From the NCBI GenBank assembly GCA_017882305.1, contig JADGPU010000027.1, positions 1-35,386 of the forward strand: a stretch of DNA of 35,386 nt, in the 5' to 3' direction. Positions 328-26,372 of the stretch are shown here, in pieces; within the stretch, counting starts at the first letter, position 1; each line of letters opens with the position of its first letter. The position numbers and the translations under genes were made by a program. The notes below the pieces were generated by a model. That model had not been told where the DNA came from and ran no database searches. It was given only the letters and a program-made list of their open reading frames with translations. This DNA comes from Bacteroidales bacterium. Its GTDB lineage: Bacteria > Bacteroidota > Bacteroidia > Bacteroidales > VadinHA17.

Positions 328-387
328 GGGATAATTCACACAACTTTTCTAAAGTTATATTCCTGATTATGTGAGCAATAAAACAAC

Positions 388-403: not shown

Positions 404-436
404 ATTTTTTTAGGGTCTTTACTAAACTTCAGACAT

Positions 437-4194: not shown

Positions 4195-5551
4195 ACTTTT
4201 TCAGCTTATTATAGAGCGTCTGACGGGTAATTCCCAGTTTCGAGGCGACTATGCTTAAATTATTATCATGCTTTTTGATTGATTCAGCAATCAATTTTTT
4301 CTCCATTTCTTCAAGTGTAGTATTGTCATTTTCAACCACTCCTTTCGATGAAGTATTGAAAGAAAAGTCCGAAGGACTGAGTAATGAGGAGTCGGACAGG
4401 ATTACTGCTTTTTCAATTGAATGTTGCAGTTCACGTATATTTCCCGGCCACTGGTAATTTGAAAGTTTTTCCAAAGCCTGAGTATTTATTTTCTTGCCGG
4501 GTTTATTATATTTATCGCAGTATACTCTAAGGAAGTGAAACGCCAGTACAGGAATATCATCTACTCTGTCCCTCAGAGGGGGTACTTCGATCTGGATGGT
4601 ATTTATTCTGTAGAGAAGGTCTTCTCTGAACAATCCTTCGATCACCCTCGAAGAAAGAATACAATTTGTTGCACAAATTAATCTTATATCAACCGGGATC
4701 TGTCTGTTTGATCCTACCCGAACAATATATCTGTTCTGAAGGGCGCTAAGCAGTTTGGCCTGCGATTGTAAAGAAAGATTTCCAATCTCATCGAGGAAAA
4801 GCGTACCCTTATGAGCTATTTCAAATTTACCTGAACGGTCTTCCTTTGCATCAGTAAACGCACCCTTTACGTGACCGAACATTTCACTTTCAAACAGGGT
4901 TTCTGTAATAGAACCCATATCCACACCAACCATAAGTTCATTACTCCTTTTTGAAAGATTGTGGATTTCCCTGGCAACCAGCTCTTTCCCTGTACCATTT
5001 TCTCCTGTTATCAGGACATTGGCATCTGTTCCCGCTACTTTCCTGACAATGTTCATCACATTAATCATTGTTGGAGATGCGCCCAGGACTATCTTTTCTT
5101 CGCTTCTTTTTATTTCTTTTTTAAGGAACTGATTATCATTCTTAAGGATGAGTGCTTCCTTTCTTGAAGTTCTCAGTTTCCAGGCTGCATTTATTGTTGC
5201 CAGTAGTTTTTCGTTATCCCATGGTTTGAGAATGAAGTCGATTGCTCCTTCTCTAAGAGCCTTAACAGCAAGTTCCACATCGCCATAAGCAGTTATCATA
5301 ACAACACTTATATTGTTGTCATGTTTCAGTATCTCTTTCATCCAGAAAAGACCCTCATTTCCTGAATTAACACCTGCCTGAAAATTCATATCGAGCAGCA
5401 CAATATCTATTTCATTCTGCTCCAATACTTCATGTATTCTCTTGGGACTGCTGATAGTAATAAGTTTTTCTACCTCGTACTGCAACATCATTTCAAGTGC
5501 ACTTATAACACTCTTGTTGTCATCTACAATCAGAAGAGTTCCCTTTATCAT
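4184..5551 (-). CDS. sigma-54-dependent response regulator, NtrC family (RR1)
   Basis: Enhancer-binding transcription activator of 455 residues. The N-terminal receiver domain has the acidic pair DD at 10-11 and phospho-acceptor Asp54 (LLDMNF). The AAA+ sigma-54 interaction domain shows Walker A GENGTGKE, the sigma-54 loop as GAFTDA rather than GAFTGA, Walker B TLFLDEIGN and PGNIREL. A C-terminal Fis-type helix-turn-helix ends ITRQTLYNKLKKYDL. A TTG upstream at 5569 is possible, but ATG 5551 makes the protein exactly as long as its paralogue RR2 and begins directly at the receiver domain. It is co-transcribed with HK1 through an 11-bp overlap. The likely target is permease A, and perhaps B, whose upstream regions carry sigma-54-like promoters; that link is inferred from context. 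Confidence 0.92.
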   Translation of the reverse strand: MIKGTLLIVDDNKSVISALEMMLQYEVEKLITISSPKRIHEVLEQNEIDIVLLDMNFQAGVNSGNEGLFWMKEILKHDNNISVVMITAYGDVELAVKALREGAIDFILKPWDNEKLLATINAAWKLRTSRKEALILKNDNQFLKKEIKRSEEKIVLGASPTMINVMNIVRKVAGTDANVLITGENGTGKELVAREIHNLSKRSNELMVGVDMGSITETLFESEMFGHVKGAFTDAKEDRSGKFEIAHKGTLFLDEIGNLSLQSQAKLLSALQNRYIVRVGSNRQIPVDIRLICATNCILSSRVIEGLFREDLLYRINTIQIEVPPLRDRVDDIPVLAFHFLRVYCDKYNKPGKKINTQALEKLSNYQWPGNIRELQHSIEKAVILSDSSLLSPSDFSFNTSSKGVVENDNTTLEEMEKKLIAESIKKHDNNLSIVASKLGITRQTLYNKLKKYDL

Positions 5552-5600
5552 ATGTCCATTTTTTATCAAAATACTGAAATATAATAATATCTATCAAATA

Positions 5601-8658: not shown

Positions 8659-10026
8659 ATGAAGAACAAAGGAAGAATATTAATAGTTGATGACAATGAA
8701 GAGATATTAATTGCTTTGAAATTATTTCTCTCAAATCATTTTGAAATTGTAGATATTCAGAAGAATCCTGACACCATTCCTGAAATAATTCATCACCAAA
8801 GCTATGATGTAATTATTCTTGATATGAATTTTTCCGCGGGTGTAAATACCGGCAATGAAGGAATCTATTGGATGAAAAAGATTCTGGAATACGACCCGCT
8901 TGCAATAATATTGTTTGTTACAGCTTATGGGGACATAGAGCTGGCTGTTAATTCCATTAAGGAGGGAGCGACAGATTTTATCCAGAAGCCCTGGGATGAT
9001 GAAAAACTGCTGGTTACACTTCTGACAGCTGTCAAATTAAGAAAATCTAATCTGGAGATAAAGAAGCTCAGGAATAAACAAATTCATCTTAGTGAAAATA
9101 TCAATAAGTCATTTAACATGTTTGTTGGTAATTCACCGGAGATGCAAAAGGTGATTAAAACAATCTCTAAAGTTGCCGGAACGGAAGCAAATATTCTTAT
9201 CCTTGGTGAAAACGGCACAGGAAAGGAGCTTATCGCGAGAGAGATTCATAAACAATCATTAAGGTACGGCGAAGTTTTTATAAATGTCGATTTGGTTTCT
9301 TTCAATGAGGGGATATTTGAGAGTGAATTGTTCGGACATATGAAAGGCGCTTTCACAGACGCGAAAGAAGATAGGGCGGGAAGATTTGAAATAGCCTCGG
9401 GAGGCACACTTTTTCTGGATGAAATAGGGAACCTGACTTTATCAATGCAGACAAAGCTTCTTGCTGCACTTCAAAACCGTGAAATATTCCGGATTGGATC
9501 AAACAAATCAATACCTATCGATATAAGATTAATCTCAGCAACCAACAAACCGTTAATTGACATGATTTCTGCCAATACTTTCAGAGAGGACCTACTTTAC
9601 AGAATCAATACTATACAAATTTTGCTTCCGCCATTGAGGAACAGGGTTGAGGATATCCCATTATTAGTCAATCATTTTCTGGTGATGTACGGCGAAAAGT
9701 ATAATAAACATGAGTTGAAAGTTTCAAATAAGGGAATGGATGCTTTACTTAAATACAGTTTTCCGGGAAATGTCAGGGAACTTGAACATATGGTTGAAAA
9801 AGCAGTTATTCTTTGTGAATCAGGTATATTGAAACAAGAGGATCTATTTTTTCAGCAAAGAATTTCCCATGTTTCCAACAAAAAGTCATTAGACCTGGAA
9901 ATGAATGAAAAGCAACTTATTTTAGAAGCTTTGGAAAAGCATAAAAACAATTATACTAAGGCCAGTATTGAGCTGAGTATAAGCCGAAAAACACTTTATA
10001 ATAAAATTAGGAAATATGGCTTTTAA
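8659..10026 (+). CDS. sigma-54-dependent response regulator, NtrC family (RR2)
   Basis: NtrC-type activator of 455 residues, paralogous to RR1 over its full length. The receiver domain has the acidic pair DD at 11-12 and phospho-acceptor Asp55 (IILDMNF). The AAA+ domain has Walker A GENGTGKE (183-190), the loop GAFTDA (230-235) in place of GAFTGA, Walker B LFLDEIGN (251-258), a conserved RINTIQ segment after FREDLLY, and PGNVREL (369-375). A Fis-type helix-turn-helix occupies about 418-452 (ISRKTLYNKIRKYGF). The gene overlaps the following kinase gene by 11 bp. It is divergent from permease B, its most likely target. The ATG at 8659 starts directly at the receiver domain. Confidence 0.93.
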   Translation: MKNKGRILIVDDNEEILIALKLFLSNHFEIVDIQKNPDTIPEIIHHQSYDVIILDMNFSAGVNTGNEGIYWMKKILEYDPLAIILFVTAYGDIELAVNSIKEGATDFIQKPWDDEKLLVTLLTAVKLRKSNLEIKKLRNKQIHLSENINKSFNMFVGNSPEMQKVIKTISKVAGTEANILILGENGTGKELIAREIHKQSLRYGEVFINVDLVSFNEGIFESELFGHMKGAFTDAKEDRAGRFEIASGGTLFLDEIGNLTLSMQTKLLAALQNREIFRIGSNKSIPIDIRLISATNKPLIDMISANTFREDLLYRINTIQILLPPLRNRVEDIPLLVNHFLVMYGEKYNKHELKVSNKGMDALLKYSFPGNVRELEHMVEKAVILCESGILKQEDLFFQQRISHVSNKKSLDLEMNEKQLILEALEKHKNNYTKASIELSISRKTLYNKIRKYGF

Positions 10027-11356
10027 TCGTTTTTTCAGAATTGTAATTTTACAGGCAGTTTTACTTGCCGTCACAGGAACATTTTTTTTATGGACCATGA
10101 TCCAGGATTATCTGTTAATTACAAAATTCACTATTGGATTTATCTGGTTACTTGAGATTATATTACTTATCCATTATCTGACGAGAACTAACCGCGGGCT
10201 TGATAATTTTCTGAAATCGGTTAAATATCTTGATCCTGTCAGAGGAGTTACTGAAGGGGATAAGTCATTTGACCATTTAAACCTGACATATAATGAGATA
10301 ATTGATACAATCCTGAAGGTAAAAATTGAAAAAGAAGCAGAACATCATTACTTTCAGAATACAATTGAACATGTAGGTATCGGATTGATATCTTTTAATG
10401 AGGCGGGCCAAATTGAGCTATTTAATAAGGCTGCCAGAGAGTTATTCAGAGTTGAATTTGTAAGCAATATTCATGAGTTGAACAAATCAATACCGGGTAT
10501 TTCAGAGCAGTTTTTTTCGCTGAAACAAAGGCATTCTAAAATGATAAAAGCTGTTTCAGGCGATGAAATACTGAAATTATCAATCAGAAAAACAGTTTTT
10601 AAGATACAGGATAATACAGTTAACCTGGTGTCACTTCAGAACATTCGAACTGAACTTGAAGAAGAAGAAATTGAAGTTTGGAAAAAATTAATAAGTGTAC
10701 TTACACACGAAATTATGAATTCGGTTGCACCTATAAAATCACTGACAAATACAATGATAAAAATATTTGAAAAGAACAGATTTTCAGAAGCGGAAAAGGA
10801 ATCTAAATATAATGATGATACCTTAATGGCTTTAAAGGCTATCCAGAAAAGAAGCAAAGGACTTTTGAGTTTTGTTGAAATCTATAAAAATCTGGCAAAG
10901 ATACCAAAACCAGTTTTTCAGGACATAGAACTGAAGAGTCTTTTACATGAAATTATAATCCTGATGAATAGCGAATTGCAATCATCTGACATTATATTAT
11001 CTACAGAAGTAAAACCCGATAATCTTAAACTTACAGCAGATGAAAAATTGATTACCCAGGTAATTATTAATCTGATTAAAAATTCCATCGAGTCAATTAA
11101 TAATAAGAAGAATGGGAAGATCGGGATAAAGGCCTTCATATCTCCTCAATCTGAAACAAATATACAGGTAATTGACAATGGGTCAGGAATAGCTGCTGAT
11201 TTAATTGACAAGGTTTTTATCCCTTTCTTTACTACCAAAGAGCATGGTTCGGGTATAGGACTAAGCCTGTCACGCCAGATAATGAAGCTTCATGGAGGCT
11301 CAATTTCGGTTTTCTCAAAACCGGGAAAAGAGACAGTGTTTTTATTAACATTTTAA
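10016..11356 (+). CDS. membrane sensor histidine kinase, NtrB-like (HK2)
   Basis: Cognate kinase of RR2, 446 residues, with the same domain order as HK1. There are two N-terminal membrane helices (about 9-29 and 37-55) with a minimal loop between them, a coiled linker, and a PAS-like domain (about 112-208). The H-box is THEIMNSVAPI with His231. The ATPase domain has N-box INLIKNSIESI (351-361), G1 DNGSGIA (387-393) and FFTTKEHGSGIGLSLS. The ATG at 10016 lies inside the last codons of RR2 (11-bp overlap), the same junction as in the RR1-HK1 pair, so the start is well supported. The gene converges on the DUF1080 gene only 13 bp downstream, with no obvious terminator between them. Confidence 0.92.
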   Translation: MAFNRFFRIVILQAVLLAVTGTFFLWTMIQDYLLITKFTIGFIWLLEIILLIHYLTRTNRGLDNFLKSVKYLDPVRGVTEGDKSFDHLNLTYNEIIDTILKVKIEKEAEHHYFQNTIEHVGIGLISFNEAGQIELFNKAARELFRVEFVSNIHELNKSIPGISEQFFSLKQRHSKMIKAVSGDEILKLSIRKTVFKIQDNTVNLVSLQNIRTELEEEEIEVWKKLISVLTHEIMNSVAPIKSLTNTMIKIFEKNRFSEAEKESKYNDDTLMALKAIQKRSKGLLSFVEIYKNLAKIPKPVFQDIELKSLLHEIIILMNSELQSSDIILSTEVKPDNLKLTADEKLITQVIINLIKNSIESINNKKNGKIGIKAFISPQSETNIQVIDNGSGIAADLIDKVFIPFFTTKEHGSGIGLSLSRQIMKLHGGSISVFSKPGKETVFLLTF

Positions 11357-12760: not shown

Positions 12761-12790
12761 AAAAAAATCCTGCAATTGCGGGATTTTTTT
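12761..12790. terminator. bidirectional rho-independent terminator
   Basis: An A7 run, then ATCCTGC-AATT-GCGGGAT, then a T7 run. The stem has one G-T wobble and is extended by A-T pairs, with T runs on both strands. It lies between the converging GRAM gene and permease C; its right edge touches the stop codon of permease C. It should end both transcription units. Confidence 0.85.
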
Positions 12791-15165
12791 TACTCATATC
12801 TCAGTGAATCAACAGGATTCCTCAGAGCAGCCTTTCCAATCTTAAAAATAATTGTAAGTATTGTTGCCACAATCATTATTGAAGCCGCCAGTATAAGTAT
12901 CCCTGGCTTTATCTGAACAAAGTAGTCCCAGATACTGTCTAATAACATAATCGACATGTAATATCCTCCTGTACATCCAATCAAAGAAGCAATTATAAGT
13001 ACAACCAGGAATTTCCTGCTCACCAGGTACATGATTAAAGGAACAGGAGCTCCCTGTATCTTTCTTATACCCATTTCTTTTGTGCGTCTTATAATATCTA
13101 GAGATACCAGGTTATACATACCAATAAGTGACAATAAAGTAGCTGCTATGGCAAGGAAAACATTTACTTTAAGGATGCTGTTGTTTATTGCCTTTTCCTG
13201 TTGCATGGTATCTTCCTGGAACATTCCTCCAAAAATGAAATTTGTAGCCTGGCTTTTCCATTTCAGCCTTAAATAATCCAGAACTCCCGGCAGATCTTTA
13301 GGTTCAGCTCTTATTGCTAAAACATTGTATTTCTCATTTGAGGATAATCTGAGCATAGTAGGATTAATCTTCTGCCAGAGCCCGCTGATATAAAAATCTT
13401 TCACCACCCCTACTACGGTAAACCTTGTTGTGTCATAAAGTGTAACAGTCATTCCAAGTGCCTCTTTCCATCCGAAATCATTGACCATTTTCTGATTTAT
13501 AATAATAGATTTATTCGTAAGGTCTGCCTCAGCCCTCGACTTATCAAACAGGCGACCCTCAACAAGTCGCAGACCCATGGTTGAAGCGTATTCCGGACCA
13601 ATATCCATGACATCCACTTCCAGCTTCTTTACCGCATCCTTTATCGGTCTCCGGTAGGTCCCAAATCCAATATGGTTTTGAGTACCTTCAGCAGAGATTA
13701 TCTTCGGATTCGTAAGGATTTCATTCCTGAAAGAGGTACTTAACTCCGGCGCAACAGGCATAACAATCAGTTTATCCCTGTCATACCCGAGATCTAATGT
13801 CCTCTGATAAACAGCATTCTTGGAAAAAACCAGACCCAAAACCAGGGCCATTACAGATATAGAAAACTGGAGTGCAAGAAGCACAGAGGATAATTTTCCT
13901 GCCCCTCTGAAAGGCGAGGCTCCTTTTAAAACATTAACAGGGCTGAAAGAACTTACATACATTGCAGGATAAACACCCGCCAAAAACCCTGTAAGCGACA
14001 GAAGCAAAAGGAGAAATATCCAGAAGAAAATATATTTGGTGAAGGTAAGTTCAATTTTCATATAATCCCATAGACTGCTGTAAGCTGGAACCAGGAATTC
14101 AGCCAAAATGATCCCGACTAATAATGCCAGGAAGCAAATAATCAGGGTTTCTAACATGAATTGAGCCACCAGTTGCCTTCTTTGTCCGCCAAAAGTTTTC
14201 CTTAAACCAATCTCTTTTAATCTTTTGCTGAATGTTGCTATTGAGGTATTGGCAAAATTGAAGCATGCAATTAATAGAATAAAAAGAGCCATTACCGGTG
14301 GAGCCATCAGAGCAGCTGGATGAAGAGAGGGAAATAGTCCTGAAGACCATGTAGTTCGAGTATTTGAACCAACCTCCTTCAAGGGAACAAGGGAAAACCT
14401 TGTAATCCGGAAATCTTCTCTTGCACGGTTTTGTACCGGGACATAATTCTTCAAAGATTTAGTGATTGAAGGAAGCAGAGATTTGTCAGGAACCTGTATA
14501 AAAAGGACTGTTGTGAGGTTTTTCCAGTCTGCATCACTCCAATTCCACATCAACTTGAAATTGTCATAGTGTGAAAGAATATCAATCCTGAAACTTGAGT
14601 TTTCAGGCAGATCTGCAAAGACTGCACCGACTGTATATGTAAATTCCTTGTTATTATCATTTACAATTGATATAGTTTTTCCGATGGGGTATTCCTTTCC
14701 AAACAATTTGTCTGCCATCGTACTGCTTACCAGGATATTTGCCTGGTTTTCAATTGATTTCTTATCTCCTACGACAATAGGAAATGTGAATATATCAAGA
14801 AATTCAGGATCAATATAGGAGATCTGGGTAGGAAAGATATTCAACCCTTCTTTGACTGGTGAACCTGTTCGCATCAATCGTGCTGCTTTCTCGATACCGG
14901 GAATATCCTTTTTTACTTCCAGGCCGAGAGTTGCAGGAACTATCCCATATTCCTGGTCCCTTCCCTCCATATCCCTGAAACTGTTAATCCGGTATATCTT
15001 GTCGAAATTTACATGTGTCCTGTCAAATTCATAATTGAACATATGGTTGAAAAAAGCCACAATGCAAACAGAAAGTGCGATTCCCAGTCCAAGAATATTT
15101 ATTAGTGTAAATATTCTGTTTTTCAGTAAATTCCTGAAAGTAACCAGCAGATAATTTCTAAACAT
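12790..15165 (-). CDS. FtsX/MacB-type ABC transporter permease (permease C)
   Basis: Double-module permease of 791 residues, last gene of the minus-strand permease run. It opens MFRNYLLVTFRNLLKNRIF with helix 1 at about 18-42 and has an extracytoplasmic domain containing GKEYPIGK. A central membrane bundle contains the loop RLKEIGLRKTFGGQRRQL. After a second extracytoplasmic domain the last bundle contains RTKEMGIRKIQGAPVP, and the protein ends NPVDSLRYE. It is much less similar to the four D copies than they are to each other, so it is an older paralogue. It sits 157 bp downstream of D1. That gap has a weak hairpin just after D1 and AT-rich DNA that might hold its own promoter. Co-transcription with the D array is therefore possible but not certain. 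Confidence 0.9.
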   Translation of the reverse strand: MFRNYLLVTFRNLLKNRIFTLINILGLGIALSVCIVAFFNHMFNYEFDRTHVNFDKIYRINSFRDMEGRDQEYGIVPATLGLEVKKDIPGIEKAARLMRTGSPVKEGLNIFPTQISYIDPEFLDIFTFPIVVGDKKSIENQANILVSSTMADKLFGKEYPIGKTISIVNDNNKEFTYTVGAVFADLPENSSFRIDILSHYDNFKLMWNWSDADWKNLTTVLFIQVPDKSLLPSITKSLKNYVPVQNRAREDFRITRFSLVPLKEVGSNTRTTWSSGLFPSLHPAALMAPPVMALFILLIACFNFANTSIATFSKRLKEIGLRKTFGGQRRQLVAQFMLETLIICFLALLVGIILAEFLVPAYSSLWDYMKIELTFTKYIFFWIFLLLLLSLTGFLAGVYPAMYVSSFSPVNVLKGASPFRGAGKLSSVLLALQFSISVMALVLGLVFSKNAVYQRTLDLGYDRDKLIVMPVAPELSTSFRNEILTNPKIISAEGTQNHIGFGTYRRPIKDAVKKLEVDVMDIGPEYASTMGLRLVEGRLFDKSRAEADLTNKSIIINQKMVNDFGWKEALGMTVTLYDTTRFTVVGVVKDFYISGLWQKINPTMLRLSSNEKYNVLAIRAEPKDLPGVLDYLRLKWKSQATNFIFGGMFQEDTMQQEKAINNSILKVNVFLAIAATLLSLIGMYNLVSLDIIRRTKEMGIRKIQGAPVPLIMYLVSRKFLVVLIIASLIGCTGGYYMSIMLLDSIWDYFVQIKPGILILAASIMIVATILTIIFKIGKAALRNPVDSLRYE

Positions 15166-15316: not shown

Positions 15317-15322
15317 GCAAAA

Positions 15323-17743
15323 TTATTCATACTTAAGTGACTGCGCCGGATTTATACTTGCTGCTCTCAATATACGATAACTTATTGTAAGAATTGCAAT
15401 TCCGAGGGCAATTGTAAGGCCTGCAATAAAACTGAAAGCACTAAGTGATATCCTGTAATAGAAGTTCTCTAACCATTTTGCCGCTACAAAGTAAATTATT
15501 GGAAAGGCAATTAGAGCTGATATTGATATAAGAATTATAGCCTCTTTTGAAATAACACCATATATACCGGTAACACTTGATCCCATAGCCTTTCGCACTC
15601 CAATCTCCTTGGTTCGTTGTTCCACAGCAAATGAAGTGAGTCCGAAAAGGCCCAGCGAAGCAATGAATACTGCAAGTATTGAAAAGATCACCGCCATCCT
15701 TGCATTCTGTTTTTCTGCAATATACATCTGTTCAAAATCCTTATCAACAAAATAGTACTCCAAAGGTTTGTTTCCTGTAAACTCTTTCCATCTGCTTTCA
15801 ATCGCGCTGATCGTTTTTGAATAATTCCCGGCCGACAACTTTACAGACAAATATCCCCCTAAAATGTTATCAGTTTTAAGGATGAACAAATATGGACCTA
15901 TTTGATTATGAAGTGATTTGAAATTGAAATTTTTCACTACCCCTATTACCTGCAAATAATTTTTACCATTCGGATCTCCAGGCTGCGTGAATCTGGTCTT
16001 TTCAAGGTCGGTAATCCCAAAATTCTTAACAGCACTTTCATTGATCACACATGCCTGCTGGTCAGTGGTAAATGATTTATTAAAGGTTCTTCCGGAAACC
16101 AGGGTTATTCCATAGGTTTCCAGATAGTTATAATCGATAAAGTTGGTCTCTAAATCCAGGAGCTCATTATTCCCTCCCTCCATCTTATAAGCAGCGGTTC
16201 TGTTGTTGCGCCCTGGAACAGCCGTAGAGCTGACAATATTTATAACGCCGGGGATTCCCTTTATAGTCTCCTTAAAGGAGGTTATCTTTGTCCCCAAAGC
16301 TCCCGCTTTATTAATTACTAAAATCTGTTCCTTGTTGAATCCCAGATCTTTATTCAGCATATATTTTATCTGCCGGTACATAATTATTGTTCCGACAATG
16401 AGTAGAATTGAAACAGCAAACTGGAAAATTACCAGCACTCTCCTTAGAAGACCGTTCTGCATACTGCTTTTTACTCTTCCCTTTAATACTTCATAGGGAT
16501 TGAAAGCTGAAAGATATAGTGCAGGATAGCTTCCTGAAAGAAAACCAACTACCAGGGTAAAAAGAATCAGAAATGGAATTATGTACCAGCTGGCAAACAG
16601 ATTAAGAGCCAGTTTTGCTCCGATCAGATTGTTAAAATACGGAAGTGCGATTTTAATAAAAATGAGGGCAATAATCAAAGAAATAAATGAGAGGATGAAA
16701 GATTCTGTCAGGAATTGGAAAATAAGCATACCCCTTGTGGAACCACCGACTTTTTTGATACCTACTTCTTTCGCTCTCCTTGATGCCTGCGCAGTTGACA
16801 GGTTCATGAAATTAATCGCAGCAATTAATACAATAAGTATGGCTAAACTGCCCAATATCTTCAGATACTTTGGATCACCTGCTTCTTTAAATTGCTGCTG
16901 AATTGAAGGATCAAGATGTATATCCGAAAGGTTTTGCAAAGAATACCTGTATTTGTTTCCCTGGGCAAGAAAATCATTTAACGATATACCCATATATTTC
17001 TGGACTTCAGGTCCTACATTCTTTTTAATCAATTCGGGAAATTTTTCAACTACTGTTACATAGCTGGAATTTGGTTTTAATAAAAGATAAGTGCTGAAAC
17101 TATTGCTAAACCAGATTGGATCATTTGACTCCGGATTAGTCATAAATGAAGAGATAATGCTGGCTTCAAAATGAGAATTTTCAGGTAAATCGGCCATCAC
17201 TCCTGATATTGTGTATCTCACAGTATCTGACCCTAATTTCAATGTTTTATCAATCGGGTTCTCGTCCCCGAAATATTTTTTTGCAGTTGAGCTCGAGAGA
17301 ACAACTTTTCGTGGAGCATTAAGAAGATTTCCAGCATCACCTTTTATAACAGGTATTGAGAAGAAGTTAAAGAAGGAGGAATCTGCTTCAACCAGGTGCT
17401 CCTCGGTAAAAGTCTGATTATTATACTCAACTTCAGTAGGTCCTATCCTGTTCATTCTCAGAAAACTCTCAATCTCAGGATATTCTTTCAGCAAAGTGGG
17501 ACCCATAACTGCTGGACTAAATGATATATTAAAATCCTTCCCTTCAAGATTCGCGTTAAAAATCACCCTGAAAATTCTCTCTTTCCTGGTATTAAATTTA
17601 TCATAGCTTGCTTCATTCATTACGTAAAGCGCAATAAACAAGCTGCAAGCAATACCAATGGAAAGTCCAAGGACATTTATAATGATGTATGAACGCTGTC
17701 TTTTAAAAGACCTTAAACTATGCTTTATCAGATTTTTAAGCAT
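15323..17743 (-). CDS. FtsX/MacB-type permease, tandem copy D1
   Basis: Permease of 806 residues, the promoter-distal member of the tandem array. Approximate layout: helix 1 at 20-43, first extracytoplasmic domain 44-294, helices 2-4 at 297-317, 345-368 and 386-412, helix 5 at 434-456, second extracytoplasmic domain 457-680, then three last helices. Cytoplasmic loops read SRRAKEVGIKKVGGSTR and VEQRTKEIGVRKAMGSS, both typical of the family. It ends NPAQSLKYE and stops with TAA, where the other three copies use TAG. It differs from D2-D4 in having IASLGLFGLTSFAVEQ where they have IAALGL(F/Y)GLTSFTVEQ, yet its last 40 residues resemble D4 more than D2 or D3. No ATPase partner. Substrate unknown. 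Confidence 0.9.
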   Translation of the reverse strand: MLKNLIKHSLRSFKRQRSYIIINVLGLSIGIACSLFIALYVMNEASYDKFNTRKERIFRVIFNANLEGKDFNISFSPAVMGPTLLKEYPEIESFLRMNRIGPTEVEYNNQTFTEEHLVEADSSFFNFFSIPVIKGDAGNLLNAPRKVVLSSSTAKKYFGDENPIDKTLKLGSDTVRYTISGVMADLPENSHFEASIISSFMTNPESNDPIWFSNSFSTYLLLKPNSSYVTVVEKFPELIKKNVGPEVQKYMGISLNDFLAQGNKYRYSLQNLSDIHLDPSIQQQFKEAGDPKYLKILGSLAILIVLIAAINFMNLSTAQASRRAKEVGIKKVGGSTRGMLIFQFLTESFILSFISLIIALIFIKIALPYFNNLIGAKLALNLFASWYIIPFLILFTLVVGFLSGSYPALYLSAFNPYEVLKGRVKSSMQNGLLRRVLVIFQFAVSILLIVGTIIMYRQIKYMLNKDLGFNKEQILVINKAGALGTKITSFKETIKGIPGVINIVSSTAVPGRNNRTAAYKMEGGNNELLDLETNFIDYNYLETYGITLVSGRTFNKSFTTDQQACVINESAVKNFGITDLEKTRFTQPGDPNGKNYLQVIGVVKNFNFKSLHNQIGPYLFILKTDNILGGYLSVKLSAGNYSKTISAIESRWKEFTGNKPLEYYFVDKDFEQMYIAEKQNARMAVIFSILAVFIASLGLFGLTSFAVEQRTKEIGVRKAMGSSVTGIYGVISKEAIILISISALIAFPIIYFVAAKWLENFYYRISLSAFSFIAGLTIALGIAILTISYRILRAASINPAQSLKYE

Positions 17744-17797
17744 GATAATTAAATATAATGGAAATTTACAGACACTGTTCTTTGGTATTAAACTCGC

Positions 17798-20218
17798 CTA
17801 CTCATATTTGAGTGACTGGGCGGGATTAACTCTTGCTGCTCTCATTATCCGATAGCTGATAGTCAGTATTGCGACACCCAGAGCGATGCTTAACCCGGCA
17901 ATAAAACTGAAAACTCCAAGGTTAATTCTATAATAGAAGTTCTCCAGCCATTTACTGGCGATATAGTAAATTAATGGCCAGGCAATCAGAGCTGAAATTG
18001 AAACCAGGATAATCACCTCCCGTGATATTACGATATAAATACCTGTGATTGAAGAGCCCATAGCTTTTCTGACTCCAATCTCTTTAGTACGTTGTTCGAC
18101 TGTAAATGATGTAAGTCCGAAAAGACCAAGAGCGGCTATAAAGATTGCAAGGATTGAAAAGATCACTGCCATCTGGGCATTCTGCTTTTCCTGAATATAC
18201 ATTTTTTCGAAATCCTCATCGACAAAGTAATATTGTAATGGATTATCTGGTACAAACTCTTTCCATTTGTTTTCAATGTCTTTAATGGTTTTAGAAAAAG
18301 CCTGGGCAGATAACTTTATTGTCAAATATTCCCCCATCATTTCATCAGTTTTGAAACAGAGGATATATGGTCCTATCTTATTTCTCATCGATTCAAAACA
18401 GAAATCCTTAACAACTCCGATAACAGGTATGTAAGTTTTGGTTTTTGATTCGCGTGGAGCCATGAATCTTGCCTTTGCAACGTCACTTATTCCAAATTCC
18501 TTTATAGCACTTTCATTGATCAGACAAGCTTGTTGATCGGTACTAAATGATTCATTAAAAGGTCTTCCTGATACAATTGTTATACCATAAGTTTCAAGGT
18601 AGTTTTTATCGACCCAGTTAGTCTGCATCAGGAAGGTTTCGTCTTTCCTGCCTTCCATCGTATAACTGAACTTATTATTGTTATGACCCGGGACGCCAGT
18701 AGAGCTGGCAATATTAATTACACCCGATATTGCTTTTACAGCATCTCTGAATGATGGGACTTTTGTTCCCAGCGCTCCTGCCCTGTTTATGACAATTAAT
18801 TGCTCCTTATTAAATCCTACATCTTTGTTCAGCATATATTTTATCTGCCTGTACATTACCAGTGTACCAATAATCAAAAGAATTGAAACAGCAAACTGAA
18901 AAACAACCAGTATTCTCCTCAGCCCACCGTTTTGTCCGGCATTTTTCATTTTTCCCTTCAGTATCTCATAAGGACTGAAGGAAGATAGAAAGAAGGCAGG
19001 ATAGCTTCCGGCAAGTAAACATACAAATAGACAGAGAAGAATGAGAAGTGGAATAGTGTACCAGTTGGTAAAGATGTTAAGTAACAGCTTTGCACCCAAC
19101 AGATTATTAAAATACGGAAGGGTTATTTTGATAAATACCAGGGCAATTATCAAAGAAATAAATGAGAGAATAAAAGACTCTGAGAGGAATTGCATTATTA
19201 GCATACCTTTTGTAGAACCGCCTATCTTTTTAATTGCAACTTCTTTCACCCTTCTGGAAGCCTGGGCCGTTGACATATTCATAAAATTAATTGCAGCTAT
19301 TAAAATAATAAGTACAGCTATACTCCCGAATATCTTCAGATATTTTGGATCACTTGCTTCTTTAAACTCCTGTTGGATTGAAGGATCAAGGTGGATATCA
19401 TTAAGACTCTGCAGATAGTACCTGTATTTGTTTCCCTGTGCGGCGAAATCACTTAGGGATATTCCCATAAATCGCTGGACTTCCGGTCCTACATACTTAA
19501 TTAACAATTCAGGAAATTTTTCATTCACAGTGATATAACTTGAATTTGGTTTTAATAGCAGGTAGGTACTTAAATTGTTATAGATCCATATCTGATTACC
19601 TGATTTAGGGTCGGTCATAAATGAAGTGAGGATGTTAGCCTTAAAATGAGAATTATCAGGGATATCTGCCATAACTCCGGCAATTATATATCTAACAGTG
19701 TCACTCCCTATTTTAAGCGTTTTATCAATCGGATTTTCATCACCGAATATTCTTTTTGCATATGATGCAGATAATACTGCCTTATGGGGAGCATTCAAAA
19801 GGTTTTTGGGATCTCCCTTTAATACAGATATTGAAAAGAAATTAAAAAAGGATGAATCCGCTTCAACCCAATGTTCTTCAGTAAAAGCCTTATTATCATA
19901 CTCAACAACTGTAGGTCCGCCTTTAGTCATTCTCAGGAAATCCTCAACTTCAGGAAATTCTCTGACCAAAGTAGGTCCTATAATGGATGAGGCTGAGGCA
20001 AGAGTAACTTCCTGACCTCCTATTTTGCCATTAAGAATCAGTCTGAATATTCTGTCTTTTTTAGTATTGAACTGATCATAACTTAATTCATTGATTACAA
20101 ATAGAGCAATGAGAAGGCTGCAGCCAATTCCTATAGAAAGGCCAAAAATATTTATAAGGATATAGGTACGTTGTCTTTTAAAAGACCTTAAACTATGCTT
20201 AATCAGGTTTTTGAACAT
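17798..20218 (-). CDS. FtsX/MacB-type permease, tandem copy D2
   Basis: Permease of 806 residues with the same topology as D1. Its final 131 residues differ from D3 at only 9 positions by my reading, including the shared segment NLGVFSF and the ending ARVNPAQSLKYE. By contrast, residues 57-117 of the first extracytoplasmic domain differ from D3 at 18 of 61. Loops are SRRVKEVAIKKIGGSTK in the first module (Ala for the usual Gly in 'EVGIKK') and VEQRTKEIGVRKAMGSS in the second. The start MFKNLIKHSLRSFKRQR is shared with the other copies. It is preceded by a 54-bp spacer without a recognisable promoter, so it is presumably read through from D3. Confidence 0.9.
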   Translation of the reverse strand: MFKNLIKHSLRSFKRQRTYILINIFGLSIGIGCSLLIALFVINELSYDQFNTKKDRIFRLILNGKIGGQEVTLASASSIIGPTLVREFPEVEDFLRMTKGGPTVVEYDNKAFTEEHWVEADSSFFNFFSISVLKGDPKNLLNAPHKAVLSASYAKRIFGDENPIDKTLKIGSDTVRYIIAGVMADIPDNSHFKANILTSFMTDPKSGNQIWIYNNLSTYLLLKPNSSYITVNEKFPELLIKYVGPEVQRFMGISLSDFAAQGNKYRYYLQSLNDIHLDPSIQQEFKEASDPKYLKIFGSIAVLIILIAAINFMNMSTAQASRRVKEVAIKKIGGSTKGMLIMQFLSESFILSFISLIIALVFIKITLPYFNNLLGAKLLLNIFTNWYTIPLLILLCLFVCLLAGSYPAFFLSSFSPYEILKGKMKNAGQNGGLRRILVVFQFAVSILLIIGTLVMYRQIKYMLNKDVGFNKEQLIVINRAGALGTKVPSFRDAVKAISGVINIASSTGVPGHNNNKFSYTMEGRKDETFLMQTNWVDKNYLETYGITIVSGRPFNESFSTDQQACLINESAIKEFGISDVAKARFMAPRESKTKTYIPVIGVVKDFCFESMRNKIGPYILCFKTDEMMGEYLTIKLSAQAFSKTIKDIENKWKEFVPDNPLQYYFVDEDFEKMYIQEKQNAQMAVIFSILAIFIAALGLFGLTSFTVEQRTKEIGVRKAMGSSITGIYIVISREVIILVSISALIAWPLIYYIASKWLENFYYRINLGVFSFIAGLSIALGVAILTISYRIMRAARVNPAQSLKYE

Positions 20219-20272
20219 AATAATGATGTATAAGGGTAATTTACTTACTCTCTTGTTGGATCCTAAAGTCTC

Positions 20273-22693
20273 CTACTCATATTTGAGTGATTGTGCAGGG
20301 TTTACTCTGGCTGCGCTTAAAATCCGGTAACTGATTGTAAGAATAGCAATACCAAGCGCAATAGCAAGTCCGGCTACAAAACTAAACACACCAAGGTTTA
20401 TTTTATAGTAGAAATTCTCCAGCCATTTACTGGCAATATAATAGATTAATGGCCAGGCAATTATTGCTGAAATTGATACAAGGATTATGACTTCTCTTGA
20501 TATAACAAAATAAATTCCGGGAATTGAAGAACCCATTGCCTTTCTTACTCCTATCTCCTTGGTTCGTTGTTCTACGGTAAATGATGTAAGTCCGAAAAGA
20601 CCAAGAGCCGCAATAAATATGGCAAGGATTGAGAAGATCACGGCCATCTGTGCATTCTGTTTTTCCTGAATGTACATCCGTTCAAAATCCGCATCAACAA
20701 AGTAATACTGAAGAGGATTATTTTCAGTGTATTCTTTCCATTTGTTTTCAATTTCAGCTATAGTTTTTGCATAATTCTGTGCCGATAACTTTACTGATAG
20801 ATATCCCCCTATCATCTGGTCCTTTTTCATGTTGAATATATATGGACCGATTGGATTACGGAGAGATACGAAATTGAAATTCTTTACGACTCCGATCACT
20901 TGCAGATATTTTGCATTACTTGAATCTCCCGGGGTTATAAATCTTGTCTTTTCAATATCTTTTATCGCAAAGTTCTTAATTGCTGTTTCGTTTACCAGGC
21001 ATGCTCCCTGATCAGTTGAATGTGATTTGTCAAATGGCCTTCCTGACTCAATAGTCATCCCATAGGTTGCAATATAATCTTCATCGACAAAGTTGGTTTG
21101 CATCAGGAAAGTTTCGTCTTTTCTTCCTTCCATCATATAACCACTATTACTGTTTTCCCTTCCCGGGACAGCAGTGGAAGATGCAATATTTATAACCCCG
21201 GAGATTCCCTTGACAGCTTCTTTAAAAGACTTCATTCTTGTTCCCAGAGCTTCCGTCCTGTTTATAACAATTAATTGCTCTTTATTGAATCCGACATCTT
21301 TATTGAGCATATATTTTATCTGCCTGTACATAACCATTGTACAAACAATCAACAAAATGGAAACTGCAAATTGAAAAACAACCAGCACCCTTCTGAGCCT
21401 TCCGTTTTTCATACTGTTTTTTACGCTTCCTTTTAGCACTTCATAAGGATTAAAAGAGGAAAGGAAGAAAGCCGGATAGACTCCTGACAGAAAACCGACA
21501 ACAACTGAGAAAAGAATCATTACAGGAATGGTATACCAGTTTTTCAAAAGATTTAATTTCAATGTTGCACCCAAAAGATTATTGAAATAGGGAAGAGTCA
21601 CTTTGATTATAAGTAAAGCAATTAACAGTGAGATAAATGAAAGTATAAATGATTCTGAAAGGAACTGAGTTATAAGCATCTCTCTTGAAGAGCCACCAAT
21701 CTTTTTAATGCCTACTTCTTTGGCTCTTCTGGCAGACTGGGCAGTTGAAAGATTCATGAAATTAATAGCCGCAATTAAAATAATTAGTATTGCAATACTG
21801 CCGAATATTTTCAGATATTTCGGATCGCTGGGCTGCTTAAACTGTTGTTGGATCAACGGATCGAGATGAATGTCAGTTAGATTCTGGCAATAAAACCTGT
21901 ATTTGTTTCCCTGGGCAGCGAAATCAGCAATCGATATCCCCATAAATCGCTGGATTTCCGGTCCAACATATTTAATTAATAACTCGGGAATCTTTTGATC
22001 TACAGTTGTATAGCTTGATTTTGGTTTTAATAACAGATAAGTACTTAGACTGTTGTTTAGCCATATTGGGCTCTTTGACAAAGGGTTAGTCATAAATGAG
22101 GAGATGATATTGGCTTCAAAATGCGAATTTTCCGGTACGTTGGCCATTACTCCTGAAACAGTATATCGTGCTGAGTCGGATCCAATCTTAAGAGGTTTGT
22201 CAATCGGGTTTTCATTGCCAAATATTTTTTTTGCCATCGATTCCGATAAAACAACTTTCCGTGGAGCATTAAGAAGATTTTTTGGATCACCTTTAATTAC
22301 AGGAATTGAAAAAAAATTGAAAAAGGAAGAATCCGCCTCAATCATATGCTCCTCAGTAAAGGTCTGGTTATTGTATTCAACTATTGTGGGTCCTCTTCCG
22401 GTCATTCTGAGATAATCCTCAACTTCCGGAAATTCCTTTGCCATCGTAGGGCCCATAGCCGATGAGGTATAGGCTGCAGTTAGCTCCTGACCTCCTATTT
22501 TCCCATTGAGTATCAATCTGACAATCCGGTCCTTCTTTACATTAAACTTATCATAACTGGCTTCATTTATTACAAAGATTGCAATAAGAAGGCTGCAGGC
22601 AATTCCGATTGAGAGGCCAAGAACATTGATAATGATATACGCACGTTGTCTTTTAAAAGATCTTATACTGTGCTTGATAAGGTTATTGAACAT
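20273..22693 (-). CDS. FtsX/MacB-type permease, tandem copy D3
   Basis: Permease of 806 residues with the same topology as D1. The first module loop is ARRAKEVGIKKIGGSSR and the second VEQRTKEIGVRKAMGSS, ending NPAQSLKYE. It is nearest to D2 in the last 131 residues. The first extracytoplasmic domain is distinct: KIGGQELTAAYTSSAMGPT, against QEVTLASASSIIGPT in D2. The 55-bp spacer before its start (22694-22748) contains TGGCAC, but no -12 element follows at sigma-54 spacing. Transcription probably comes from upstream. All membrane segments and loops appear intact, with no frameshift or missing segment, so it is likely functional. Confidence 0.9.
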   Translation of the reverse strand: MFNNLIKHSIRSFKRQRAYIIINVLGLSIGIACSLLIAIFVINEASYDKFNVKKDRIVRLILNGKIGGQELTAAYTSSAMGPTMAKEFPEVEDYLRMTGRGPTIVEYNNQTFTEEHMIEADSSFFNFFSIPVIKGDPKNLLNAPRKVVLSESMAKKIFGNENPIDKPLKIGSDSARYTVSGVMANVPENSHFEANIISSFMTNPLSKSPIWLNNSLSTYLLLKPKSSYTTVDQKIPELLIKYVGPEIQRFMGISIADFAAQGNKYRFYCQNLTDIHLDPLIQQQFKQPSDPKYLKIFGSIAILIILIAAINFMNLSTAQSARRAKEVGIKKIGGSSREMLITQFLSESFILSFISLLIALLIIKVTLPYFNNLLGATLKLNLLKNWYTIPVMILFSVVVGFLSGVYPAFFLSSFNPYEVLKGSVKNSMKNGRLRRVLVVFQFAVSILLIVCTMVMYRQIKYMLNKDVGFNKEQLIVINRTEALGTRMKSFKEAVKGISGVINIASSTAVPGRENSNSGYMMEGRKDETFLMQTNFVDEDYIATYGMTIESGRPFDKSHSTDQGACLVNETAIKNFAIKDIEKTRFITPGDSSNAKYLQVIGVVKNFNFVSLRNPIGPYIFNMKKDQMIGGYLSVKLSAQNYAKTIAEIENKWKEYTENNPLQYYFVDADFERMYIQEKQNAQMAVIFSILAIFIAALGLFGLTSFTVEQRTKEIGVRKAMGSSIPGIYFVISREVIILVSISAIIAWPLIYYIASKWLENFYYKINLGVFSFVAGLAIALGIAILTISYRILSAARVNPAQSLKYE

Positions 22694-22748
22694 GATAATT
22701 GTATATATAACGGAAATTTGAAATCAATTTATTCAGTGCCATCTTTTC

Positions 22749-25169
22749 CTACTCATATTTGAGTGACTGCGCGGGATTTACACTCGCTGCTTTAAGGATA
22801 CGATAACTTATTGTAAGAATTGCAATTCCGAGGGCAATAGTCAGTCCTGCAATAAAGCTGGAAGCGCTGATTGATATCCTGTAATAGAAGTTTTCCAACC
22901 ACTTTCCTGCAGCATAGTAAATTATTGGCCAAGCGATTAGGGCCGATATTGATACAAGAATTATTACCTCTTTTGAAATCTCAGCATAAATGCCTGGAAT
23001 AGTAGAACCCATTGCTTTTCTGATCCCAATTTCTTTTGTCCGTTGTTCTACAGTAAATGATGTGAGTCCATAGAGTCCAAGAGCTGCTATGAAGATTGCA
23101 AGAATAGAAAAGATTACAGCCATCTGGGCATTCTGTTTCTCTTGCTTATACATAAGTTCAAAATCCGCATCAACAAAATAATACTGCAACGGGTTATTTG
23201 ATACGAACTCTTTCCACTTATCTTCAATAGCACCTATAGTTTTAGAATAATTCTGACCTGATAATCTTACAGTTATATATCCCCATAGCATTTTATCATT
23301 CTGAAATTTAAGTATATATGGACCAATCGGGTTACGCAGTGATTCATAATTAAAGTTCTTCACAACACCTATAACAGGTAAATAATTTATTTTCCCTGAA
23401 TCACGAGGTTCCATGAATCTGGTCTTTTCAATATCAGTAATCTTAAAATCCTTACGGGCACTTTCATTAATAATACAGGCATCCTTATCAGAGGCAAATG
23501 ACTCATTAAAGGATCTTCCGGAAACTAGGGTCATACCGTATGTTGCCAGAAAATCATAATCTACCCAGCTGGTCGCCATCAGAAAAGTCTCATCTTTTCT
23601 TCCCTCCATCATATATCCGTTATTATTATTTGTACGACCTGGTATGGCAGTAGAGCTTGATATATTAACTACACCGGGTATGTTTTTCACAGTCTCTTTA
23701 AAGGACTTCATTTTTGTTCCAAGTGCTTCAGCCCTGTTAATGACTATTAATTGTTCCTTTTTGAATCCTACATCCTTGTTAAGCATGTATTTTATCTGTC
23801 TGTACATGATCATTGTACCCACAATAAGTAGAATAGAAACAGCAAACTGAAAAACAACCAGAATCCTTCTCAGTCTGCCATTTTGCATGCTGTTTTTTAC
23901 ACCACCCTTAAGTACTTCATAAGGATTAAAAGAAGAAAGAAAAAGGGCCGGATAACTCCCTGCCAGAAAACCAACAAAAAGTGAGAACATAATAAGTATA
24001 GGAATTGTGAACCAGGAGGAAAAAAGATTGAGCGCGAGATTTGCTCCCAAAAGATTGTTGAAATAAGGAAGTGATAGCTTAATAAATATTAAGGCAACTA
24101 TCAGAGCTATAAATGATAGAATAAACGATTCAGAAAGAAACTGACCTATGAGCATGCTTCTTGTTGAACCCCCGACTTTTTTTATACCTACCTCTTTTGC
24201 CCTTCTGGACGCCTGGGCAGTTGATAGATTCATAAAATTAATTGCTGCCATTAAAACAATAAGGATAGCAATACTACCAAATATTTTAAGGTATTTAGGA
24301 TCAACTGAGGCTTTAAAATCCTGCTGAACAGAAGTATCAAGATGAATATCGCTGAGATTCTGCAGGTAAAATCTGTATTTGTTACCCTGAGCTATAAAAT
24401 CGTTAAGTGAAATGCCTGTATATTGCTGGATTTCCGGACCAACGTATTTTAACAGTAGATCAGGATATTTCGCGTCGACGGTTTTATAGGATGAATTTGG
24501 TCTTAACAGAAAATAGGTACTGAAGCTGTTATTCATCCACTTAGGTTCTTTGGACCTGGGATTGGTTATAAATGAGGATAAAACATTTGCTTCAAAATGC
24601 GAATTTTGAGGTACATCAGCCATAACACCTGTTACTATATATCTCAAGGTATCAGATCCTATCTTGATGGGTTTATCAATCGGGTTCTCACTGCCAAATA
24701 TTTTTTTTGCGGTTGATTCTGACAAAACAACCTTTCGGGGAGCGTTAAGCAGATTTTTCGGATCACCTTTTAGAACTTCTATCGAAAAGAAATTAAAGAA
24801 AGATGAATCGGCTTCAACTATATGATCTTCAGTAAAGGTTTGGTTATTATACTCAATAACTGTAGGACCCATTCCGTTCATTCTAAGAAAATCTTCAATT
24901 TCCGGAAATTCTTTTACCATTGTAGGTCCCATAATTGCAGGGGAAGTTGCTCCCGTAATTTCCTGTCCGCCGATTTTACCATTAAGAATCGTTCTGAAAA
25001 TCCGGTCTTTTTTTACATTAAATTGATCATAGCTTGCCTCATTTATTATATAAAGTGCAATCAGAAGGCTGCAAGCAATACCAATTGACAAACCCAGTAT
25101 ATTAATTATAATATATGCACGCTGTCTTTTAAAAGATCTTATACTATGCTTTATTAGGTTTTTGAACAT
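22749..25169 (-). CDS. FtsX/MacB-type permease, tandem copy D4
   Basis: Permease of 806 residues, first gene of the tandem array in transcription order. Topology as D1. Loops are SRRAKEVGIKKVGGSTR, identical to D1, and VEQRTKEIGIRKAMGST. The ending AASVNPAQSLKYE resembles D1, and a 41-nt stretch near the 3' end is identical to D1 while D2 and D3 differ there, suggesting gene conversion. It lies 127 bp downstream of the broken permease E. That gap is AT-rich and may carry the array promoter, but no -24/-12 or convincing TAnnTTTG site was found. The start MFKNLIKHSIRSFKRQR is conserved among the copies. Confidence 0.9.
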   Translation of the reverse strand: MFKNLIKHSIRSFKRQRAYIIINILGLSIGIACSLLIALYIINEASYDQFNVKKDRIFRTILNGKIGGQEITGATSPAIMGPTMVKEFPEIEDFLRMNGMGPTVIEYNNQTFTEDHIVEADSSFFNFFSIEVLKGDPKNLLNAPRKVVLSESTAKKIFGSENPIDKPIKIGSDTLRYIVTGVMADVPQNSHFEANVLSSFITNPRSKEPKWMNNSFSTYFLLRPNSSYKTVDAKYPDLLLKYVGPEIQQYTGISLNDFIAQGNKYRFYLQNLSDIHLDTSVQQDFKASVDPKYLKIFGSIAILIVLMAAINFMNLSTAQASRRAKEVGIKKVGGSTRSMLIGQFLSESFILSFIALIVALIFIKLSLPYFNNLLGANLALNLFSSWFTIPILIMFSLFVGFLAGSYPALFLSSFNPYEVLKGGVKNSMQNGRLRRILVVFQFAVSILLIVGTMIMYRQIKYMLNKDVGFKKEQLIVINRAEALGTKMKSFKETVKNIPGVVNISSSTAIPGRTNNNNGYMMEGRKDETFLMATSWVDYDFLATYGMTLVSGRSFNESFASDKDACIINESARKDFKITDIEKTRFMEPRDSGKINYLPVIGVVKNFNYESLRNPIGPYILKFQNDKMLWGYITVRLSGQNYSKTIGAIEDKWKEFVSNNPLQYYFVDADFELMYKQEKQNAQMAVIFSILAIFIAALGLYGLTSFTVEQRTKEIGIRKAMGSTIPGIYAEISKEVIILVSISALIAWPIIYYAAGKWLENFYYRISISASSFIAGLTIALGIAILTISYRILKAASVNPAQSLKYE

Positions 25170-25296: not shown

Positions 25297-26372
25297 TTAT
25301 TCCACTTTAAGAGCTTCAGCCGGGTTAATACCGGTTGCTTTATATGCCTGGTAACTAATTGTCACCATTGCAATTACAATCGCTCCTACTGCTATCGCAG
25401 CAAACACAAAGAAACTTATATCTATCCTGTAAGCAAACTGTTTCAGCAAGTTTTTGACAATGACCCAGCCAAGAGGAATTGCTATTATAATTGAAATAAG
25501 TACAGGTAAAAGAAATTCCCGGGCCAGCGTATATATGACTGTAATTGAATCCGCTCCCATAACTTTTCTGATACCGATTTCATTAGTCCGCCGTTCAGCT
25601 GAATAGGATGACAAACCATATAGTCCAAGGCAAGCAATAATTATCGCCAGAATAGTAAAATATTTCAAAAGCCCCGTAATACGAACCTGAGCCTTGAATA
25701 AGTTATCGTAATCCTGGTCAATGAATGTATATTCGAGAGGAAAATCCGGAACAACCGCTTTCCAGACTTTTTCGGCTGCTTTAAGCGATTCAGGAACACT
25801 ACCGGGGGTTAACCTTATAAGGATACATCGCAGATAGTTGATTGGGGCCAGGGCAAATGCCATTGGTTCAATGGCCTGGTCAGCACCTTTAAAATGGAAG
25901 TTTTTAAGAACTCCTACGATAACGCCATTAAGCCCCATAAATCTGAAGTTCTTGCCGACAGGGTCTCCTATGCTCAAAGGAAAAGTAAAAATTTTAAGAA
26001 GCTCCGAATCTACTGCTGCAATACTGGATTCAAAGAAAACCTTATCCTCATATTTGAATAAAACACGTTGAAGCCATAAATTTATCCTGACCTGATCTTC
26101 TATTTCCGGGATCTTTTCTTTCCACACTGGTCCGCTGGGGACCGGAGTCACCGTTACATGATAACGTGCATCGGAATAGAACTGATCCTCTTCGACACGA
26201 TAGATTTTTTTGCATTCAAATTGAATTTTTCGAAACTGAATTCATCCTGAACCCATAAGAGTATCAGTAAGGAAGCAGCCAGCCCTACTGCAAGACCGGT
26301 CACATTTATAAACGTAAAACCTTTTTGTCTGGCAATATTCCGGACAGTTATACGAAAGAAGTTTTTAATCAT
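25297..26372 (-). pseudogene. broken FtsX/MacB-type permease (E): internal deletion plus frameshift
   Basis: Remnant of an 800-residue permease. The ATG at 26372 starts a normal N-terminus (MIKNFFRITVRNIARQKGF, then helix 1). The frame breaks in a homopolymer at 26205-26211 (seven A on the coding strand). Adding one A restores IYRVEEDQFYSDARYHVTVT and joins the downstream frame. The sequence then runs to FTFPLSIGDP and jumps to VGKNFRFMGLNGVIVGVLKN, which in the paralogues lies in the second extracytoplasmic domain. By comparison with D1 about 455 residues (roughly 137-590) are missing. The deletion ends at a GDP/GDPxGK motif present in both halves of such proteins, near 25960-25968. The C-terminal bundle with RTNEIGIRKVMGADS and the ending NPAEALKVE is intact. 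The single-base shift could be an assembly error; the deletion is harder to explain that way. Confidence 0.88.

Follow-up and report, generated by a model that had tools for sequence, protein, structure and literature searches.

Four adjacent permease genes, called copies A to D from left to right, form a tandem array in a 35,386-nt stretch of DNA from a Bacteroidales bacterium (contig JADGPU010000027.1 of assembly GCA_017882305.1, a draft of 186 contigs that is 92% complete). The window refers to this whole stretch. The array probably arose by amplification of P806, the middle gene of a conserved DarBCD-like exporter locus of the MacB type (type VII), and its paralogues would share one ATPase, one adaptor, and one channel. 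Each of the four copies evolves under purifying selection. Related genomes are given as G0xx codes and their loci as L0xx codes.

Organization of the array

The open reading frame (ORF) list of the window places the array on the minus strand between positions 15323 and 25169 as four ORFs of 806 codons, all starting from ATG. The spacers between the genes are 54, 54, and 55 bp, and the start-to-start periods are 2475, 2475, and 2476 bp. The protein alignment of A to D has 806 columns and zero gaps with pairwise amino acid identities of 71 to 77%, and pairwise nucleotide identities are 72.5 to 74.7%. These measurements confirm the preliminary description of this DNA, which had remarked on four genes of equal length with near-equal spacers and diverged proteins. 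The longest in-register exact match for any pair of copies is 41 nt; short reads should therefore tell the copies apart, and a collapse or false expansion of A to D by short reads appears unlikely. An extra near-identical copy could be hidden by assembly collapse. The spacers between B and A and between C and B match at 37 of 54 positions, a likeness reached in 0 of 5000 shuffles, and the repeat unit is therefore a gene plus its upstream spacer, at least for A and B. The spacer between D and C has a weak ungapped likeness to the other two (23/54 and 22/54).

Predicted permease architecture

A Pfam domain search finds two FtsX (PF02687) and two MacB_PCD (PF12704) stretches in each of A to D, all above the cut-off, and no ABC_tran domain in the permeases. 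Copy D has eight hydropathy peaks. Its AlphaFold model, built with 56 aligned sequences (predicted local distance difference test score 85.5, predicted template modeling score 0.78), has eight long membrane helices arranged as two repeats of a transmembrane (TM) helix, a periplasmic domain, a TM helix, a coupling helix, and two TM helices. Helices 320–332 and 711–719 occupy the coupling positions, between TM2 and TM3 in the MacB/LolC/YbbP-type fold, and both coupling-helix motifs, RxKEVxIKKxxGS and RTKEIGxRKAMGS, are kept in A to D. The best full-length match to the model in VIA-align is Escherichia coli YbbP (Z = 24.2, root-mean-square deviation 9.0 Å, 674 aligned residues), followed by the periplasmic domain of the Porphyromonas permease 3is6 (Z = 23.3, 229 aligned residues). 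BceAB chains match with Z = 20.2–20.5, and half-molecules of D match MacB chains (Z = 15.7–15.9) and chain E of LolCDE (Z = 15.5). A sequence profile search against structures matched 12 distinct chains, among them 3is6, MacB, LolF, YtrF, and LolC. The best NCBIfam match of A to D is ADOP (TIGR03434), which covers residues 6–806 at 274.7 to 290.3 bits against a cut-off of 622.3, and the second is DarB (NF038008) at 104 to 122 bits against a cut-off of 700. The domain order and the model indicate that each 806-aa gene encodes a complete fused-dimer (pseudo-dimeric) MacB-like type VII ATP-binding cassette permease, which should therefore need only a dimer of the ATPase.

A conserved ATPase accompanies the array

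A domain search of the window ORFs finds no ATPase gene within the window. Window bases 1–99 overlap the end of contig C5 without a mismatch, and no other place in the genome matches them at full identity. The end of C5 carries a gene for a 222-aa stand-alone ATPase and an adaptor gene, followed by a TolC-type gene. An orthologue of this ATPase (90–98% identical) lies on one contig with P806 and a response regulator in eight relatives (G005, G026, G031, G013, G015, G001, G033, and G034), with the adaptor gene adjoining. The ATPase is found with the permease P371, the histidine kinase HK1, and the response regulator RR1 in G006 and G019, where P806 copies lie on other contigs. A TolC match is present in nine of ten relatives; the G033 contig ends in the adaptor gene, and the G013 match covers 268 aa only. 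The window taken alone would read as a set of orphan permeases lacking an ATPase. This reading was dropped given the ATPase on the array contig in eight relatives and the C5 overlap here.

The best NCBIfam match of the ATPase is DarD (NF038007) at 281.5 bits against a cut-off of 375, and that of the adaptor is DarC (NF038010) at 195.9 bits against a cut-off of 450. The adaptor has an HlyD_3 domain and passes the general RND_mfp cut-off (142.8 versus 94.9 bits), and the channel has an OEP/TolC domain. Against the ten relatives, the ATPase has a median identity of 96.5%, the adaptor 87%, and A to D 71 to 74%; medians in nine of the ten are 68% for TolC and 83% for ValS. Each value is that of the best hit spanning half the length or more in the loci examined, and permease values may therefore fall on a paralogue. 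ValS was taken as the species marker after rpoB gave no match in this genome; the ValS search had no match at its threshold in G017 and G031. The ATPase ranges from 90 to 98% identity and A to D from 64 to 89%, and the ATPase is above ValS in 9 of 9 comparisons; G034 and G019 have only a partial ATPase sequence. Seven intact double permeases, namely P371, P802 (5960), P791 (12790), A, B, C, and D, accompany this one ATPase. A simple motif test found no ATPase beside other double permeases in the stretches examined on contigs C137, C71, C8, C101, and C111. We infer from synteny and conservation that A to D share the C5 ATPase.

History of the array in related genomes

At least 19 of the 35 genus members examined hold a P806 copy or fragment at about 59% identity or more. 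This survey of homologues was run at E ≤ 1e-150 with up to 16 candidates per genome scored, and its copy counts are lower bounds. The locus order in relatives is shared in whole or in part as GH3, P813, one or more P806 genes, P791, and a 103-aa ORF. Counted from P791, the P806 order is A-B-C-D in the window, B-E in G031 (both broken), D-E in G005, D-E in G019 (D cut by the contig end), A in G026, and E with an internal deletion in G034. Single P806 copies occur in G010, G013, G015, G033, G012, G002, and others, some of them cut by contig ends. The four genes of the window are the largest P806 set seen at the locus, where relatives have one or two, some also cut by contig ends. The comparison of copy number in related genomes that had been proposed in the preliminary description thus finds other subsets, of one or two copies, between the same flanking permeases. 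Decay is common: P813 of the window is a remnant, P791 is fragmentary in G034, G017, G001, and G012, and P806 is a fragment in G018.

Trees pair copy B with the G031 copy (89% identity) and copy D with the G005 copy (87%), next to those of G017 and G020. Copy A groups with copies in G026 and G001 (77–78%), and C has no clear partner. B and D are closer to these copies in other species than to their array neighbors (71–77%), and forcing A to D into one clade costs 470 log-likelihood units (p = 1.6e-54 in the approximately unbiased test). D was kept across a divergence over which ValS changed by about 10 to 15%. The pattern fits one old array that underwent different losses, with an order that rests on three multi-copy relatives, two of which have the same pair. 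A P806 homologue in a genome of another family (L093, G047:C239) is 70% identical to D and nests among the genus sequences, which may reflect either a transfer or a binning error.

Purifying selection on all four copies

Pairwise ratios of nonsynonymous to synonymous divergence (dN/dS) among A to D are 0.062 to 0.112, and dS is 1.5 to 2.4, with synonymous sites near saturation. Branch models were fit to 23 sequences on a topology fixed from nucleotide trees with weak deep nodes. The terminal-branch ratios (ω) of the four copies are 0.06 to 0.14 (Table 1) versus 0.07 overall, and ω fixed at 1 is rejected for each copy, with twice the log-likelihood difference (2ΔlnL) about 25 for A, 26 for B, 100 for C, and 69 for D. 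Copy B is somewhat relaxed (2ΔlnL = 7.95 versus a single ω), and A, C, and D are no different. Likewise, the stop-bearing copy of G001 is relaxed (ω = 0.20, 2ΔlnL = 22.8). By region, ω is lowest in the coupling helices (0.027 and 0.019) and is 0.080 to 0.081 in the periplasmic domains; TM6 (0.024) and TM2 (0.036) are low, and TM3–4 (0.077) and TM7–8 (0.067) are near the periplasmic values.

The preliminary description had proposed that selection keeps all four copies functional and that the array is not a fresh, transient amplification, and had suggested dN/dS per branch as a check. None of A to D has a dN/dS near 1, and the claim of selection therefore stands. A recent amplification is rejected by the dS values and by the tree test. 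The retention of all four copies holds for this genome and does not extend to the genus, where relatives have one or two copies at the locus, several of them broken. Three full-length P806 homologues carry one in-frame stop each: L082 (G005:C224), L084 (G001:C27), and L089 (G031:C106), with terminal ω values of 0.055, 0.20, and 0.11, respectively. With a terminal ω of 0.055, the L082 copy may owe its stop to a very recent mutation or to an error in the sequence.

The equal length of the four genes had also been taken as a sign of selection, and this argument fails. Among 26 complete homologous ORFs in the loci of relatives, 22 are 805 to 807 aa and 17 are exactly 806. The four exceptions are 840 aa (possibly an upstream start), 758 aa (an in-frame deletion), and 712 and 727 aa (stop-bearing copies). 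The count sets aside A to D themselves, five copies truncated at contig ends (L081, L097, L098, L101, and L102), both split copies in L089, the L104 fragment, and the L105 copies, which are distant at about 44%. An alignment of 15 array and non-array copies has 806 columns and one single-codon gap, and the neighboring P791 is exactly 791 aa in six of the eight relatives with a complete ORF. A fixed length is a property of these permeases, in arrays or not, and equal length was rejected as special evidence. The near-exact array period follows from this family-wide fixity combined with short spacers.

Proposed mechanism

The locus would bring together several fused-dimer permeases with a stand-alone ATPase, an HlyD-type adaptor, a TolC channel, and two-component regulators of the NtrC type. 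The array would have originated when P806 duplicated in tandem, ahead of the split between several genus members, with birth and death pruning it afterwards. Its paralogues would take turns on the one ATPase, adaptor, and channel, and may differ in periplasmic substrate or partner specificity. By analogy with the MacB model, described in PMC5985334 as ATP-driven mechanotransmission via the periplasmic domains, these domains would close on ATP binding and force substrate into the adaptor-TolC duct. Periplasmic or membrane-derived substrates would be pushed out through TolC by this movement.

A lead toward specialization comes from the comparison of B with D. Differences fixed between the orthologue pairs are distributed 90 periplasmic to 18 elsewhere, versus 88 to 82 for differences within pairs (p = 5e-8), which suggests periplasmic-domain specialization of the paralogues. 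The A pair, which has a distant partner, also has periplasm-rich changes within the pair. Results of this contrast between fixed and within-orthologue differences are mixed over all comparisons, and it was not upheld as a general proof of specialization. We tentatively entertain a wider scheme of one engine with many heads, in which a single near-unchanging ATPase with its adaptor and channel would drive an evolving cluster of at least seven permeases and so widen the substrate range, while the array makes and loses heads.

Alternative explanations

The four copies could instead do the same job, their retention serving to increase the supply of one permease. Equal length, domains, and coupling motifs are consistent with such a dosage role, as are purifying selection on all copies and the short spacers on one strand, which suggest a single transcript. 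The copies are nevertheless 23 to 29% different with dS near saturation, B and D are each nearer to the copy of another species than to their neighbors, and the fixed B/D differences are concentrated in the periplasmic domains. Pure dosage is disfavored because the copies are not homogenized except in one short tract, and we consider it improbable. A wrong copy number or order in the contig is far less credible still. The genome is a draft, and homologues in G019, G006, G021, G022, and G024 run into contig ends, but no exact match between copies exceeds 41 nt, the flanks of the array are those seen in relatives, and the orthologues of B and D occupy this locus too.

Mostly neutral birth and death is a serious rival. 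Unequal crossing-over would produce copies that persist under constraint for a time and are then lost at random, and a set of four would be a high draw reached without specialization. This process accommodates the P813 remnant of the window, the many relatives with genes that are broken or missing (P791 in G034, G017, G001, and G012, two P806 genes in G031, and the G018 fragment), the confinement of the periplasmic signal to contrasts with B and D, and the relaxation of B. Against it stand the low terminal ω values, the rejection of ω = 1 for each copy, and the retention of D while ValS diverged, and it is judged somewhat unlikely.

Several observations weigh against an amplified P806 gene whose specialized paralogues share the C5 ATPase. 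The join to C5 rests on a k-mer-like overlap and synteny. A second ATPase on contig C3, the next closest in the genome to the C5 ATPase and 49% identical to it, is a possible alternative partner; no permease lies near it within the 2.3 kb examined around the gene. The trees resolve the deeper splits among the copies only weakly, and the D tree has G005 closer to the window than G020, contrary to ValS. The periplasm-rich contrast is not general: 12 of 36 contrasts reach p < 0.05 (uncorrected), and all of them involve B or the window/G005 D pair. B accounts for seven of its eight contrasts (not A|B) and the window/G005 D pair for six of eight (not D|Dx or D|h), and the remaining contrasts yield 0 of 21. 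The G017/G020 pair of the D clade is periplasm-rich against B only. Model M2a collapsed onto M1a and gave no positively selected class of sites. The conversion scan marks a short tract shared by A and D at codons 778–790 as probably gene-converted (p = 0.0002), and the other five pairs are not significant; gene conversion was rejected as the main force on the array with a significant tract in only one of six pairs. Finally, a σ54 consensus scan gave no site at the array that would connect the regulators to it. The only site in the window to reach 10/12 or better lies within GH3 at 28596, with 0.5 expected from 20 single-base shuffles, and σ54 promoters upstream of the array were rejected on this basis. 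Control of the array by the NtrC-type regulators of the locus is a candidate link.

Relation to known transporters

Exporters of the type VII tripartite kind are already known, as are DarBCD and fused YbbP-like permeases. The locus resembles the darobactin exporter DarBCD in its double-FtsX-type permease with a separate ATPase and adaptor. It differs in that the scores of its proteins are all below the DarB, DarC, and DarD equivalog cut-offs (700, 450, and 375) and in having seven intact permeases per ATPase. ADOP permeases are defined as lacking nearby ATPase genes. ADOP is the best NCBIfam match of A to D and shares the internal duplication and large paralogous sets, whereas A to D score far below its cut-off and an ATPase belongs to the locus here. 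MacAB-TolC is similar in its MacB periplasmic core, FtsX domains, linked adaptor and TolC-type channel genes, and half-molecule fold match. MacB has a fused ATPase, whereas here a separate gene encodes the 222-aa ATPase and the two permease halves form a fused dimer. The usual description of a MacB-type exporter pairs a single permease with a single ATPase. YbbAP-TesA of E. coli, the best full-length fold match, is alike in its fused pseudo-dimeric permease of about 800 aa and separate ATPase, and unlike in the 10 TM helices of YbbP versus the 8 predicted here and in the adaptor and TolC genes at the present locus. PMC12646458 describes E. coli YbbAP as a fused pseudo-dimeric YbbP of 10 TM helices with a separate ATPase that works with the hydrolase TesA.

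Large sets of double permeases in Bacteroidota are already in print, as PMC11573002 gives 28 and 33 RAST-annotated copies of duplicated orphan permeases for two Dyadobacter genomes. Three Sphingobacterium loci (L062, L064, and L067) have runs of four to five complete double permeases of ~800 aa, with more cut by the locus ends, and an ATPase gene in L064 shares 50% identity with the C5-type ATPase. These loci suggest a broader multi-permease pattern. A literature search, with most subscription papers outside its coverage, found no published tandem arrays of such permeases in Bacteroidota and, with the same partial coverage, no cluster of seven fused permeases (four in an old tandem array) with one highly conserved ATPase. 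If the permeases do share an ATPase, copy number and periplasmic divergence would be a directly testable route to a wider export range in Bacteroidota, and the cell may run a set of interchangeable pump heads on a single engine. Sharing would also offer a ready explanation for the large "orphan" sets of double permeases in the Sphingobacterium loci and in Dyadobacter (PMC11573002).

Flanking genes and other features

The features of the window are collected in Table 1. P813 is full length in G005, G026, G031, G034, G010, G013, G015, and G021. The locus has two NtrC-type regulator/kinase pairs, of which the first regulator recurs in relatives.

Table 1. Coordinates of the array and of neighboring features in the window
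Feature	Coordinates	Strand	Remarks
Exact 99-bp overlap with the end of contig C5	1..99	.	C5 carries the ATPase, HlyD-type adaptor, and TolC-type channel genes
P371, double permease	371..2797	+	Orthologue directly after the ATPase gene in G005, G006, G019, G034
First histidine kinase (HK1, 2827–4194) and NtrC-type response regulator (RR1, 4184–5569)	2827..5569	-	Regulator at the locus of relatives, 70–92%
P802, further double permease	5960..8368	-	G034 orthologue 81%; G006 partial, 85% over 292 aa
Second NtrC-type response regulator (8659–10026) and histidine kinase (10016–11356)	8659..11356	+	
Conserved 103-aa ORF, no Pfam match, flanks P791	12410..12721	+	78–91% identity, same locus, 8/10 relatives
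P791, downstream permease of a different subfamily, conserved array flank	12790..15165	-	From domains and relatives
Copy A, double FtsX/MacB_PCD permease, 806 aa, nearest P791	15323..17743	-	Branch ω 0.104
Copy B, 806 aa	17798..20218	-	ω 0.137; 89% identity to the same-locus G031 copy, which has an in-frame TAG at codon 261
Copy C, 806 aa	20273..22693	-	ω 0.086; clear orthologue not found
Copy D, 806 aa	22749..25169	-	ω 0.060; 85–87% identity to copies in G005, G017, G020
P813-type permease remnant, upstream	25297..26372	-	Homologous only to residues 558–791 and 1–55 of the G005 protein

The spacer after copy A (15166–15322) contains a palindrome-like repeat with the core GGTGCTCTGCACC, and several imperfect copies of a palindrome-like repeat are seen by eye in the matching spacer of G034 (L103:11206–11623). 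An inverted repeat (5–74 versus 108–178, 76%) lies within positions 5–178 of the window, at the C39/C5 contig break. Upstream of the array, positions 26457–33875 on the minus strand encode a GH3 hydrolase, a BNR-like protein, an outer-membrane barrel, an esterase, and, by eye, an SGNH-type hydrolase. This hydrolase block is conserved beside the array in G006 and partly in G034 and G031. A functional link of the upstream hydrolases to the permeases is conceivable by analogy, because YbbAP of E. coli functions together with TesA, itself a hydrolase.

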